From Bacilli bacterium (lineage in GTDB: Bacteria; Bacillota; Bacilli; Bacillales; Amphibacillaceae): DNA of 64,000 bases. Shown here in pieces: positions 1,524-57,923 of this stretch (position 1 is the first letter of the stretch; every line of letters begins with the position of its first letter). The notes below the pieces were generated by a model. It saw only the letters and a program-made list of their open reading frames with translations, had not been told where the DNA came from and searched no databases. A program made the position numbers and the translations under genes. Location of the stretch: assembly GCA_012838505.1 (NCBI GenBank), contig DUPD01000020.1, positions 1-64,000 on the forward strand, written 5' to 3'.

Positions 1524-2483
1524 TTATTTTTTGTTTAAAATATTTAAATCATACTGAACTGCTTTTTTCCCTACAAGATTCACTGTTGGAAACCCTTTGA
1601 GCAAGCGATGGGTTAAACTTTTACACTCCACCCCCAACCACCTTCTTGCGGTGCGGTTGTTGATCGTTGGTTTGAATAATCTAGCGTAGTCACGGAGTGC
1701 TAAGTGATGCGCGGTTGGGTCGGATAGTCCGCAGGCTGGGCATGTCCAAGTTGCGAACGCACGGTGCATAAAAACTTTTCGACAACTGCGGCAGAGGATG
1801 CCTGGATTTAAGTCAGAAAGTTGAATTTGGTATTCTGCAATCAAATCAACTGCCAGCGGTTCGTGCAATTTCTTCAGTAATGTTTTCATTTGCTTGAGTT
1901 GGTGGTTGTTGTAGCACTGTTGGCGGGATTTTTCCAAAATATTATTGATGTGAAATGAGACTTCTTGGGCGACGATAACTTTTGTTGATGTGATTGATGG
2001 GTCGAGTTGGGTCGTGTTGTGTGTAAATGCGACGATTGGAACGATTGGTATAGGTGGGAATCCGTGGCGTCTGAGTATATAGTCGAGTTGTTGTTTTTGG
2101 ATTTCGACTTGGTTTTCCGGGTTGTCGAAGGTGACTAATTGATTCGAGTACTGCTGGAGATACTGGCCGTGTTGGTTTTTTGAGATTAATCCTTTGCGGT
2201 GCTTTGCTTCAATAATAAACAGGGTTTCTGGTGTGGCGATGAGGTGGTCAAGTTGGGTAAAAAATGTGCTGCCTTTGAGTCGGAGACCTGCGAAGTGTGT
2301 TACTTTTGGCAATCGAATAAATTCAAAATGATAACGGAGATTTTTTTCACCGAGGTAGCCGGCAAAATCTTTTCCTAACTGGGCCGCTAATTCTCGATAA
2401 GCTGGAAATGACGGTTTCAGTCGTGGTACAATCGCTTCTAATTGAAGTAATCGCTCGGTTTTTTTAACTAATTGATAGGTCAT
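1524..2483 (-). CDS. NERD (nuclease-related) domain protein with C-terminal C4 zinc-finger
   Basis: TLFIIEAKHRKG core; CRSCRKVF...CPACG zinc motif. Confidence 0.8.
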   Translation of the reverse strand: MTYQLVKKTERLLQLEAIVPRLKPSFPAYRELAAQLGKDFAGYLGEKNLRYHFEFIRLPKVTHFAGLRLKGSTFFTQLDHLIATPETLFIIEAKHRKGLISKNQHGQYLQQYSNQLVTFDNPENQVEIQKQQLDYILRRHGFPPIPIVPIVAFTHNTTQLDPSITSTKVIVAQEVSFHINNILEKSRQQCYNNHQLKQMKTLLKKLHEPLAVDLIAEYQIQLSDLNPGILCRSCRKVFMHRAFATWTCPACGLSDPTAHHLALRDYARLFKPTINNRTARRWLGVECKSLTHRLLKGFPTVNLVGKKAVQYDLNILNKK

Positions 2484-4109: not shown

Positions 4110-5393
4110 TTAATTTTGGGTTTGGCTCAGTTCTTCTTCAGTGACGGTCTCTTTCCAAATCTTTGCACCGAGGTTGGCCAATTTATCAGTTAAGTTTTCA
4201 TAGCCACGCTCAATATGTTCAACACCAGTAATTTCTGTGATTCCTTCTGCCATCAGGCCCGCAATGATCAGCGAGGCGCCGGCACGAAGGTCAGAAGCGC
4301 GGACTTTAGCTCCTTGAAGTTTTGTCGGACCATAGACGATTGCGCTTGATCCCTCAACTTTAATTTTTGCGTTCATCCGTCTAAGTTCGTCTGCATGCTT
4401 AAAACGCGCACTATAAATCGTATCTGTGATAATCGATGTGCCTTCAGCTTTTGTTAGTAATGCAGTAAATGGTTGTTGCAAGTCTGTTGCAAAACCTGGA
4501 TAGACAAGTGTTTTAATATCAACAGCAGTCAGGTTATCTGACTTGCGAACACGTAGGTGCTCTTCACCTTCTTCGATATCGACACCCATCTCACGTAATT
4601 TTGCAATGACTGGTTCTAAGTGCTGCGGAATCACGTTGTCGATTAAAACATCTTCACCTAAAGCGGCTGCTAAGATCGTATATGTTCCGGCCTCAATTCG
4701 ATCAGGAATAATTGTGTGCGTACAACCAGACAATGTATCAACGCCTTCGATTCGAATCACGTCGGTTCCTGCCCCTTTGATTTTCGCACCCATACTTGTT
4801 AGAAGTGTGGCCACATCAATAATTTCCGGCTCACGAGCAGCATTTTCAATGACTGTTTTTCCTTTTGCTCGAACAGCAGCAAGCATAATATTAATTGTTG
4901 CCCCAACACTAACGACGTCAAGATAAATTCTAGCACCGATTAATTCATCAGCACGGAGATAAATTGCTCCTTGTTCGTTGGTGACTTTTGCGCCAAGTGC
5001 TTCAAAGCCTTTAATATGTTGATCGATTGGACGCGGGCCAATGTGACAACCACCTGGTAGCCCAATGACGGCACGTTTAAAACGACCGAGCATTGCGCCC
5101 ATAAAATAATAAGATGCACGGAGTTTTTTTACTTTGCCGTTTGGTAATGGCATTGAGGTCATTTTTGTTGGGTCGATATGTACGGTACTGCCGTCGCGTG
5201 TGACTGTACCGCCGATTTCTTCAATTAATTCGCTTAAAATCAAAATGTCTGAAATATCAGGCAGGCCTTCAATACTGACTTCAGAGTCTGCCAGGATTGT
5301 TGCTGGTAGCAGTGCGACTGCGCTGTTTTTTGCTCCACCAATTTTTACCGTTCCCTTTAAAGGTGTACCACCTTCTACAAATAATTTATTCAT
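4110..5393 (-). CDS. murA: UDP-N-acetylglucosamine 1-carboxyvinyltransferase
   Basis: [31 protein letters not shown]; synteny with rho and fba suggests the MurZ/MurAB paralogue. Confidence 0.95.
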
Positions 5394-6794: not shown

Positions 6795-7175
6795 TTAGTT
6801 ATTTTCCAATAATTGATTAATTGTGTTTTTTGCTTCGACAATATTAAATGGTTTAGAAAAATAAGCTTTGACTGTTTTCAATTTTTCAGCCGTTAATTTT
6901 ACTGATTCGATCAAACCACTCATGATGATCGTTGGAATTTCATATCCTTTTTCTTCGAGTAGTTCAATGATTTCTGTCCCGCTTTTGATTGGTAGTTGCT
7001 GATCGATAATGATTAGGTCGGGTTGGTTATTTTCTATTTCTGCAATTGCACTTATTCCGTCTTCAAAACTTTTTGCATGATAACCTTCGTTGCGAATAAT
7101 TTCTTCAAGTAATAGTCGAATGCCTCTATGGTCGTCAATAATCAATACTGTTTTAGTCACATGTTTTCCCCCCAT
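6795..7175 (-). CDS. spo0F: Sporulation phosphorelay response regulator Spo0F-like
   Basis: Single receiver domain; IDDHRGIRLLLEE, LIIIDQQLP, YFSKPFNI; located between fba and pyrG as in B. subtilis. Confidence 0.85.
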   Translation of the reverse strand: MGGKHVTKTVLIIDDHRGIRLLLEEIIRNEGYHAKSFEDGISAIAEIENNQPDLIIIDQQLPIKSGTEIIELLEEKGYEIPTIIMSGLIESVKLTAEKLKTVKAYFSKPFNIVEAKNTINQLLENN

Positions 7176-7292
7176 CTCTTCATGTTATACAAAATTTTAT
7201 CTTTCTGTGGGTGTTAATGTATTTTTACAGTAACTAAACTTGAAAATTGGATCATGTTATGCTCGATCTTCTTCACGTAATATGTATAAATG

Positions 7293-24360: not shown

Positions 24361-24412
24361 TGCCTAATTCTCTCTTTTTCAACTCGATTCCCTTTAATAA
24401 CCACTGATAGTA

Positions 24413-24428
24413 TGTAAATTTACAGTAA
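24413..24428. promoter_or_regulatory. Candidate Rgg-box 1 upstream of mini-ORF
   Basis: TGTAAATTTACAGTAA; contains perfect palindrome TGTAAATTTACA; resembles 24728-24743. Confidence 0.45.
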
Positions 24429-24501
24429 TATACACTTTTTTTACTCATGTCAGATAACCTAGAGTTGAGTTAATAATTAGTAAATGAAGGAGGTTATCGA
24501 C

Positions 24502-24531
24502 ATGGAAGGTTGGTTAATCGGCGGTTACTAA
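24502..24531 (+). CDS. Candidate leaderless signalling peptide, MEGWLIGGY (9 aa)
   Basis: AAGGAGGT (24487-24494), 7-nt spacing, ATG, 9 codons, TAA; strong hairpin-T8 terminator follows; adjacent rgg. Confidence 0.55.
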   Translation: MEGWLIGGY

Positions 24532-24576
24532 AAATCAGTTTTGTATAAAGCACTAAATTTAAATAATACCTTTTTG

Positions 24577-24638
24577 GCACATTGTTTCTGAATCCTAGCT
24601 AGTTTTAACTAGGTAAATGAAATTATGTGCTTTTTTTT
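24577..24638 (+). terminator. Terminator of the mini-ORF transcript
   Basis: GCACAT...CCTAG / CTAGG...ATGTGC nested hairpin followed by TTTTTTTT. Confidence 0.75.
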
Positions 24639-24727
24639 GTCTTTTGAAAAATTAATTGAATTGATTGTTTATCAATTGGCTTAATAAATTTATTATCTCA
24701 TTACTATTTTAAAAAGATTTGTTATAC

Positions 24728-24743
24728 TGTAAATAATCAGTAA
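24728..24743. promoter_or_regulatory. Candidate Rgg-box 2 upstream of rgg
   Basis: TGTAAATAATCAGTAA, overlapping a TATACT -10-like hexamer; shares TGTAAAT...CAGTAA with box 1. Confidence 0.4.
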
Positions 24744-24861
24744 ATTAAATCATTTAGTCGTTTTAATGGTGAAGTAACAGTATAAACTACCAAAAAGATT
24801 AGAAATTTAATTATATTTTTTCTTGTTGATAGTAAATCACTAAGTGTTTAGGGGTGAAACG

Positions 24862-25746
24862 ATGTCACTAGGTAAAACAATTAAACAAATTCGAAAAATG
24901 AAAAATATTAAATTGAAATATATTTGTGGAAATGTAATTGAGATGGGCAATTACTGGCGGTTCGAACAGGGACAGATTTCAGTATCGGCCGATACTTTTT
25001 ATCAGATTATTCATAATCTTAATATATCCTTTGAGGAGTTTTCCTTTTATCATAATGGTTTTAAAAATGATAAATTAGATGAATGGGGGAATATGATGAT
25101 TCAGGCATTTCAATCAAGGGATAAAGATCAATTAGAATTGATTGCAACAAATGCTGAAACTGAATTTAACAATACACAACAAGTCAGATATCTACATCTC
25201 CATTACTTAGCTAATATTTATAAATCTTTAGTTAATAAAAATAAAATCAACTCTGTTTGGATCAGTCAGCTTAAACAATATTTAACCGATTGTGAACAGT
25301 GGGGGTACTATGAGGTTTCTCTATTCAATAATATTCTTTTTTGTTTCAGTGATTTAGATACAATATTAGTGCTGTATAAACGCATGAATCAGTCCTATTT
25401 AAGGTCAAAAAGACTACATAAATTCCCCAATGAAGAGGTTATGCTAGCCACAAATATAATATGTTTATGCATTATAGATAAAGCGTATTCGAGTGCAAAT
25501 GAAATAAATCAATTAATACAAAATAAAGAAGTTGGTGAGCGTTCAATGTTTGCCAGAACCTTACTGTTATGGTGTGATGGGTTAGTCAATAAAGTAGTTT
25601 TTAGAAAAGATGAGGGCTTAGAGCAAATAAAAACAAGCTTGGAAATTATGAAGGCTCTAGACATGGAAACAACTTTAAATATGTTCGACCGATGGACCAA
25701 TCAATTATTATTTAAGCAAGATTTCACAAACAAAATTTTACTTTAA
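24862..25746 (+). CDS. Rgg/GadR/MutR family transcriptional regulator
   Basis: N-terminal XRE-type HTH (LGKTIKQIRKMKNIKLKYIC) and Rgg-type C-terminus with CEQWGYYEVSLFNNILFCFS. Confidence 0.88.
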   Translation: MSLGKTIKQIRKMKNIKLKYICGNVIEMGNYWRFEQGQISVSADTFYQIIHNLNISFEEFSFYHNGFKNDKLDEWGNMMIQAFQSRDKDQLELIATNAETEFNNTQQVRYLHLHYLANIYKSLVNKNKINSVWISQLKQYLTDCEQWGYYEVSLFNNILFCFSDLDTILVLYKRMNQSYLRSKRLHKFPNEEVMLATNIICLCIIDKAYSSANEINQLIQNKEVGERSMFARTLLLWCDGLVNKVVFRKDEGLEQIKTSLEIMKALDMETTLNMFDRWTNQLLFKQDFTNKILL

Positions 25747-34923: not shown

Positions 34924-35075
34924 GCTCTTATCAAGAGTGGCTGAGGGAATAGGCCCTGTGAAGCCCGGCAACCTACGTGAAAGAAAGGTGCTAAATCCTA
35001 CAGATTATTAATCTGGCAGATAAGACGAGGCTAAGACACCGCAAACCTCTTCTTACCTAAGGAGAGGTTTTTTTG
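34924..35075 (+). ncRNA. SAM-I (S-box) riboswitch with terminator
   Basis: CTCTTATCAAGAGTGGCTGAGGGAATAGGCCCTGTGAAGCCCGGCAACC...AAGGTGCTAAATCC...; terminator CCTCTTCTTACCTAAGGAGAGGTTTTTTT. Confidence 0.95.
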
Positions 35076-57360: not shown

Positions 57361-57590
57361 TAAAAAAGCCCCTAAATCATTTGCTTGAATGATTTAGGGG
57401 ACGATTGTATTTGTTCAATCGCGGTGCCACACCTATTTAGAGAGGTTAGTCTCTACACTTTGATCCGGTGACGGGGATTAGCCGTCCTTTCCTACTCCAG
57501 GATGTTTCGGAAAAGCTCTAGTAAGTCCATTCGGTTGTGTTGTTATACTGAGTTTTCAGCAGTGCTCAGCTCTCTTTAATAACAGTTAGA
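57361..57590 (-). ncRNA. T-box leader 2 (promoter-distal), Trp specifier
   Basis: Specifier GAA-UGG (57529-57527); T-box GGTGTGGCACCGCG; terminator CCCCTAAATCATT / AATGATTTAGGGG TTTTTT. Confidence 0.9.
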
Positions 57591-57639
57591 CAACTTACTT
57601 CTCTTACATCATTGATTTTAATATTAAATTTTGAGATCA

Positions 57640-57923
57640 AAAAAAGGCTCTCTCGTTCCGAAAAGGACGAGAGAACCCGTGGTACCACCTTAATTAGCAT
57701 TTTAATGCTCACTAGACGATCAATCGCAGTTAAAGATTAATCGTTGTTTCTAGGTAACGGTGAAACAACCTCCGTCAAAGCTTACTGGGCCAAGTGGCCG
57801 TTTAGTTTGACTGCTCAAAAGCCCATTCACTTAAATTCCTTCACTAGTTTCCACCAACCACTAGCTCTCTTTTAGAAAAAATCTAAGCTACTCCTCTTTG
57901 TCAACGCAGAAATATTTGATTTG
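57640..57923 (-). ncRNA. T-box leader 1 (promoter-proximal), Trp specifier
   Basis: Specifier GAA-UGG (57825-57823); T-box AAGGTGGTACCACGG; terminator GGTTCTCTCGTCC / GGAACGAGAGAGCC TTTTTTT. Confidence 0.9.

Follow-up and report, generated by a model that had tools for sequence, protein, structure and literature searches.

In the 64-kb stretch of DNA analyzed here (the window), a nine-codon mini-ORF, ATGGAAGGTTGGTTAATCGGCGGTTACTAA (24502-24531), encoding MEGWLIGGY lies between recQ and the gene for an Rgg-type regulator (Table 1). No other mini-ORF of this type, preceded by a Shine-Dalgarno sequence (SD) and up to 40 codons long, is present in the window. When the recQ-rgg intergenic stretch was shuffled with its dinucleotides preserved, 4 of 20,000 shuffles produced an ATG ORF of 6-12 codons behind an 8-nt SD. 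The intrinsic terminator of the mini-ORF transcript comprises a stem (24576-24631) and a T-run (about 24632-24639), with an MFE of -21.1 and a z-score of -2.1. A second in-frame ATG at 24484 lacks an SD, and the nine-codon form is the conserved one because in the Amphibacillus sediminis counterpart an in-frame stop precedes the ATG. The nine-codon ORF, its SD at 7 nt, the hairpin with its T-run, and the Rgg gene had all been reported in a preliminary description of this locus, and all were confirmed.

Table 1. Positions and supporting evidence of features at the peptide-rgg locus and at spo0F in the window
Feature	Position	Strand	Basis
Mini-ORF MEGWLIGGY, candidate leaderless signal peptide	24502..24531	+	Frame kept in two relatives beside orthologous rgg
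Shine-Dalgarno sequence AAGGAGGT	24487..24494	+	8 nt, 7 nt from ATG; sequence and shuffle test
Nested hairpin and T-run, intrinsic terminator of mini-ORF transcript	24576..24639	+	Fold z -2.1; -2.9 in G002
Putative mini-ORF promoter -10, GATAAC	24453..24458	+	26 nt beyond operator 1, without a good -35; G002 has the same -10 at the same distance
Putative Rgg operator 1, TATGTAAATTTACAGT	24411..24426	.	Just upstream of mini-ORF promoter -35 region; also in G002 and A. sediminis; best window match
Putative Rgg operator 2, ACTGTAAATAATCAGT	24726..24741	.	In front of rgg; also in G002 and A. sediminis; second best window match
rgg, HTH and Rgg/RopB-type TPR receptor-regulator, 294 aa	24862..25746	+	Domain, structure and tree matches
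Putative Rgg operator 3, ACTGTAAAAATACATT	7216..7231	-	spo0F promoter; third best window match (13.5); also at spo0F in G002
spo0F promoter -10, TATAAC	7184-7189	-	26 nt beyond operator 3
spo0F, single-domain response regulator between pyrG and fba	6795..7175	-	Best eight PDB matches all Spo0F; synteny pyrG-spo0F-fba

We first searched 60 relatives for orthologues of the regulator and used 161 genomes of the family for motif pattern searches. Close Rgg orthologues were found in 2 of the 60 relatives: G002, which is of the same genus and which we infer to be probably A. xylanus (66%), and A. sediminis (G004; 51%). The order recQ, mini-ORF, terminator, rgg is preserved in G002, where the ORF encodes MTEWLIGGY. 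A search for SD-preceded mini-ORFs around the A. sediminis rgg identified MPEWIIVGF (L032:5928), a nine-codon ORF downstream of rgg with the SD AGGAGGT, the start of which is fixed by an in-frame TAG directly upstream. In all three species the ORF has nine codons and a strong SD and adjoins an orthologous rgg, at a distance from the receptor gene of 330 bp in the window, about 335 bp in G002, and about 75 bp in A. sediminis; the two genes are arranged in tandem, not divergently, in each case. Loss of the reading frame in relatives had been proposed as a refutation of the signaling peptide, and the frame is kept (MEGWLIGGY, MTEWLIGGY, and MPEWIIVGF). The likeness to SHP peptides that had been seen in an E/G after the Met did not hold, as the relatives carry T-E and P-E at these positions.

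From the TGG codon to the stop, the window and G002 differ at three positions, all synonymous (ATC/ATT, GGC/GGT, and TAA/TAG). Across the mini-ORF, 22 of 30 nt are identical, so with just three synonymous changes the codons by themselves give only modest support. The pattern M-x-x-W-[FLPS-type codon YTN]-I-G-G-Y-stop was matched in only 2 of the 161 family genomes, those of the window and G002. A third genome of the genus (G001) contains neither rgg nor the mini-ORF, no WLIGGY pattern was found in mini-ORFs around more distant Bacillales Rggs, and a search for relatives returned nothing among viral contigs and A. sediminis alone among genome contigs. The sample is small, comprising three species with a single mini-ORF at each locus. 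Within it, the nine-codon mini-gene is real, and three Amphibacillus-type bacteria keep it next to the same regulator.

Among distant Bacillales Rgg genes, two from one genus (G281 and G501; L060:2428, plus strand, and L062:1400, minus strand) are each accompanied by a mini-ORF of 14 codons, MFSPDIVWCVGPAL and MYSPDILWFISIER, whose SD is very strong; these may encode short Rgg ligands of a second family. A further mini-ORF, MFEILVVWLTGGGG with the SD GAGGTGA (L008:2164 / L061:2407, plus strand), resembles SHP/LCP peptides and lies close to a divergent G009 Rgg from the same family.

The encoded peptide combines W, L/I, I, and Y/F with E and two Gly residues around the hydrophobic core W-L-I-G-G-Y; it has one charged residue and is less hydrophobic than SIP. 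Leaderless communication peptides of the published class have 8-10 aa, no leader, and a composition rich in aromatic and aliphatic residues (PMC10518010); the present peptide agrees with them in length and in having no leader. We consider it likely that the mini-ORF encodes a ready-made signal peptide, with translation in vivo, binding, export, and import all being inferred.

A 16-bp palindrome resembling ACTGTAAATnnnCAGT is present in two copies per locus in all three species. The copies before the mini-ORF are TATGTAAATTTACAGT in the window, TATGTGAATTTACAGT in G002, and ACTGTAAATAAACAGT in A. sediminis, and those before rgg are ACTGTAAATAATCAGT, ACTGTAAATACGCAGT, and ACTGTAAATTTACATC, respectively. 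From the mini-ORF box to the -10 element (GATAAC, GATAAC, and TATTCT) the distance is 26, 26, and 28 nt, and no good -35 is present. A position weight matrix (PWM) trained solely on these six boxes gave its highest scores over the 64-kb window at the promoters of the mini-ORF (18.2), rgg (16.2), and spo0F (13.5), the next site scoring 8.0. Operators common to both genes tie the peptide gene and rgg together. The boxes, their spacing, and their co-occurrence with the locus are shown; that the palindrome is the Rgg operator is likely and rests on this co-occurrence, without binding data. In A. sediminis (L032, about 4500-4900) the rgg operator is divergent, with a GATAGT 28 nt beyond the box on the other strand, and the LuxR-type response regulator gene downstream of it is a possible target there.

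The family of the receptor is clear, with matches of the window regulator to Pfam Rgg_C (4.6e-23) and TIGR01716 (9.3e-25); the receptors of the two relatives match TIGR01716 at 1.9e-27 and 8.1e-28, so that the threshold for the leaderless communication peptide (LCP) class, E < 1e-5, is met. The nearest solved structure to the whole sequence is 9lth, NrpR of S. salivarius K12, which we take, from its name and species, to be RopBss, the receptor of the LCP MWLILLFL (PMC10518010). For the C-terminal domain alone the nearest structure is RopB (4.5e-11), which scores above Rgg2. Sequence identity is 28.1% over 139 residues to RopB, of which only the C-terminal domain and not the full-length protein was compared, and 25.8% over 271 residues to NrpR (9lth); the published class criterion is at least 25% identity to RopB with at least 70% mutual coverage (PMC10518010). 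A phylogenetic tree placed all three Amphibacillus Rggs, together with Rggs from Lactobacillales plasmids, on the side of RopB (support 84/79), and topology tests rejected their grouping with other Bacillales Rggs (AU p 0.002) and did not reject a grouping with RopB/9lth (AU p 0.136).

RopB has a pH-sensing histidine switch, for which residue roles have been described (PMC6565748). The RopB segment WSHYE aligns with WGYYE in the window Rgg, placing a Tyr at the switch histidine, and among the switch positions H144, Y176, Y182, and E185 only E185 is kept. An AlphaFold model built from the three sequences was poor (pLDDT 62.6), and the fold search is merely supportive. By structures and tree, the receptor is probably closest to the RopB-clan LCP receptors, and it fits the RopB/SIP parallel more than SHP; peptide binding is inferred. 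The parallel to RopB and its leaderless mini-ORF drawn in the preliminary description is supported.

That description did not name the likely targets, of which spo0F is in the window and glcK lies elsewhere. The true start of spo0F is probably a GTG near 7160. The G002 spo0F promoter carries the box TATGTATATTTACAGT (PWM 16.7) 28 nt before TAAGAT, and nothing comparable was found at spo0F in G001, A. sediminis, and 13 further genomes (best PWM 1.9). Perfect ACTGTN6ACAGT palindromes are rare, at 2-4 per genome. One of those in G002 precedes the ROK glucokinase gene (glcK), and the window genome has another in the same place, before an orthologue with 74% identity. PWM scores in the window genome versus G002 are 13.5 versus 16.7 for spo0F and 9.6 versus 21.4 for glcK. 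These boxes differ from those at the locus; in the genome of the window they are also the weaker sites, and the PWM did not find them at the glcK and spo0F promoters of G001 or A. sediminis.

Two more perfect palindromes in G002 precede a peptide-cleavage/export ABC transporter gene of the C39, bacteriocin type (TIGR01193, 1.1e-178), downstream of which come the gene for an HlyD-type protein and a small ORF whose leader (YLDGG) is double-glycine-like. The simplest box search revealed no common neighbor genes until the palindrome and its spacing to the -10 were included. The pattern ACTGTN6ACAGTN{26,29}TATAAT then gave 4 matches in the 161 family genomes, and the reversed control gave 2. The four are the glcK promoters of the window genome and G002 and the two C39-exporter sites of G002, so that only the two genomes with the mini-ORF are represented. 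This pattern was framed after the target sites had been seen, and its independent part is the absence from the other 159 genomes. The target boxes lie 26-28 nt before the -10 in promoters without a good -35, as expected of activated promoters.

Several further sites were seen, some of which were set aside. Orthologue comparison led us to regard the box pairs in cotO-like, ABC-transporter, and 98-100% identical mobile-looking DNA as coincidental or coding, an identical 16-mer common to L131 and L148 was rejected for its non-orthologous neighbors, and the perfect palindrome at G000:C8 belongs to a terminator and was rejected as an operator. In L104 (about 1553-1655, plus strand), an ORF without an SD, MEVWLFLID..., perhaps on a leaderless mRNA, begins immediately behind the -10 of the first promoter of the C39 exporter; its first residues resemble MEGWLI and it ends within the second operator, possibly by chance. 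A second G002 cluster (G002:C1:746000-753000; L116, L118, and L157) contains two C39 exporters and a LuxR-type regulator, with the operator-like site TATGTAAATATACATT at about 752667.

We propose that the locus is probably a leaderless peptide-Rgg switch that activates its own peptide gene, glcK, and spo0F, where binding, export/import, and regulation are inferred. A short terminated transcript would carry the nine-residue MEGWLIGGY alone, without a secretion leader. The peptide is presumed to exit and re-enter cells, or to act inside the producer, and would bind the TPR domain of the adjoining Rgg. The complex is predicted to bind the 16-bp palindrome, which adjoins the -35 region on its upstream side, and to activate promoters that have a good -10 and no -35. 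With the peptide gene as its own target, the circuit would have positive feedback (autoinduction); glcK and spo0F would be the other targets, the G002 regulon would add the C39 bacteriocin-type exporter operon, and the second operator, in front of rgg, would serve autoregulation.

The direction of regulation is taken as activation because of the operator position and the missing -35s. Repression by peptide-free Rgg remains possible by analogy, as RopB without peptide reportedly represses at speB (PMC10071013). A bolder reading, in which a leaderless peptide and a RopB-clan Rgg of a spore-forming genus act directly on the transcription of spo0F and the glucokinase gene and, in one of the species, on that of a bacteriocin-type exporter, could as readily prove wrong as right, and the sporulation link in particular is inferred from sequence alone.

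Among rival explanations, a chance mini-ORF with a fortuitous SD in AT-rich intergenic DNA is all but excluded. Nine codons are few and most ORFs of such size are noise, but the combination arose in very few of the shuffles described above, and two relatives keep the frame next to rgg. It is very improbable that the mini-ORF is instead a leader peptide or attenuator, the translation of which sets the downstream hairpin and hence rgg transcription. The same-strand order of mini-ORF, hairpin with T-run, and rgg in the window and G002 would suit such a role. However, the A. sediminis mini-ORF lies with its own operator downstream of rgg and cannot attenuate it, the kept features are residues and length and not a single-codon run, and rgg has its own operator beyond the terminator. 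Since the mini-ORF has switched sides of rgg while keeping its length, residues, SD, and operator, we interpret it as a cognate partner gene and not an attenuator.

Two other readings are unlikely without being so readily dismissed. The peptide might be a purely intracellular Rgg cofactor or autoinduction timer with no extracellular signal. The lack of a leader would agree with this, as would the lack of a dedicated exporter immediately next to the locus in the parts that were read in the three species, and export and import routes are unknown even for published LCPs (PMC10518010 and PMC12700828); published leaderless LCPs have nevertheless been found in supernatants and are taken up (PMC10518010). 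Alternatively, the palindrome might serve another regulator, with Rgg and the peptide controlling only themselves and the spo0F and glcK sites being coincidental or those of another protein. The divergence of these boxes from the locus boxes and their absence from A. sediminis favor this reading, whereas the confinement of the sites to genomes with rgg and the mini-ORF, at the same 26-28 nt spacing, argues against it.

Because of the conserved mini-ORF, the paired operators, and the RopB-clan nearest structures, we regard the system as working like an LCP system and probably being one, with secretion and binding inferred. The earlier claim of a leaderless signaling peptide is thereby largely supported, by conservation, common operators, and receptor kinship, while binding, export, and import stay inferred. 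The LCP class was published in 2023 (PMC10518010), and examples in the LCP/RopB clan are S. pyogenes SIP-RopB, S. salivarius MWLILLFL-RopBss, and LCPs of E. malodoratus and L. reuteri (PMC10518010 and PMC6565748). Common to these and the Amphibacillus loci are an ORF of 8-10 aa with a strong SD and no leader, and an ATG within 450 bp of a TIGR01716 receptor. The Amphibacillus loci differ in the tandem arrangement of peptide gene and rgg (divergence is preferred in the class, but not required; PMC10518010), in a terminated peptide transcript without an operon behind it, in a less hydrophobic peptide (E, GG, Y), in a receptor with Tyr at the position of RopB His144, and in predicted targets elsewhere in the genome, spo0F included.

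SHP-Rgg2/Rgg3 of streptococci likewise have an Rgg-family receptor, the peptide-gene promoter as target, and an autoinduction circuit. SHP, however, is a longer propeptide with a PptAB-dependent leader, whereas the window has only the nine-codon ORF and no propeptide. Rap-Phr and NprR-NprX of Bacillus also wire peptide signaling to the Spo0F phosphorelay. Rap and NprR act on Spo0F~P as proteins; here, in contrast, spo0F transcription is the predicted control point, via an Rgg-type activator. Bacteriocin-associated Rgg/GadR/MutR regulators lie on the same RopB side of the tree and have mini-ORFs of 9-10 aa by the receptor that have the [WY]LIG core in common with Amphibacillus, such as MYLIGLFLL on the L. 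sakei lactocin S plasmid (L064:2901, minus strand) and MPWYLIGLLL on an E. raffinosus megaplasmid (L066:2894, plus strand), each adjoining the Rgg regulator of a bacteriocin cluster. There, unlike here, neighboring bacteriocin genes are likely targets, and the receptors are only about 27-30% identical to that of the window.

This is not a new kind of system, because the LCP class, Bacillaceae candidates included, has already been published (PMC10518010). What is new is the Amphibacillus peptide trio, the tandem terminated peptide unit with remote targets, and above all the predicted spo0F operator. Amphibacillus is absent from the main text of PMC10518010 (its supplementary tables, which might list the genus, were not covered), no report joining Amphibacillus and Rgg was found in the open-access literature searched, and none linking an Rgg protein to spo0F was found in the titles and abstracts searched. 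To our knowledge, no non-environmental bacteria are among the carriers of these three peptide-receptor pairs. If true, the model would provide a transcriptional route from peptide quorum sensing into the sporulation phosphorelay, unlike Rap-Phr or NprR, and this would be new. Of the pheromones of Gram-positive bacteria, leaderless signals are some of the most poorly understood, with exit and re-entry routes unknown. Three natural peptide-receptor pairs and a predicted operator offer a tractable test bed for specificity, and an Rgg with a predicted spo0F operator in a spore-forming genus makes the link between LCPs and sporulation directly testable.

Unrelated features were also recorded. A 5-kb contig of the window's assembly (G000:C7; L126) encodes proteins 98-100% identical to those of G002:1959900-1962000 (L166); other orthologues compared are about 48-94% identical, and the contig is a recent mobile element or contamination. 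Rfam matches in the window identified two tandem T-box leaders (57394-57913, minus strand) and a SAM riboswitch (34925-35026, plus strand).
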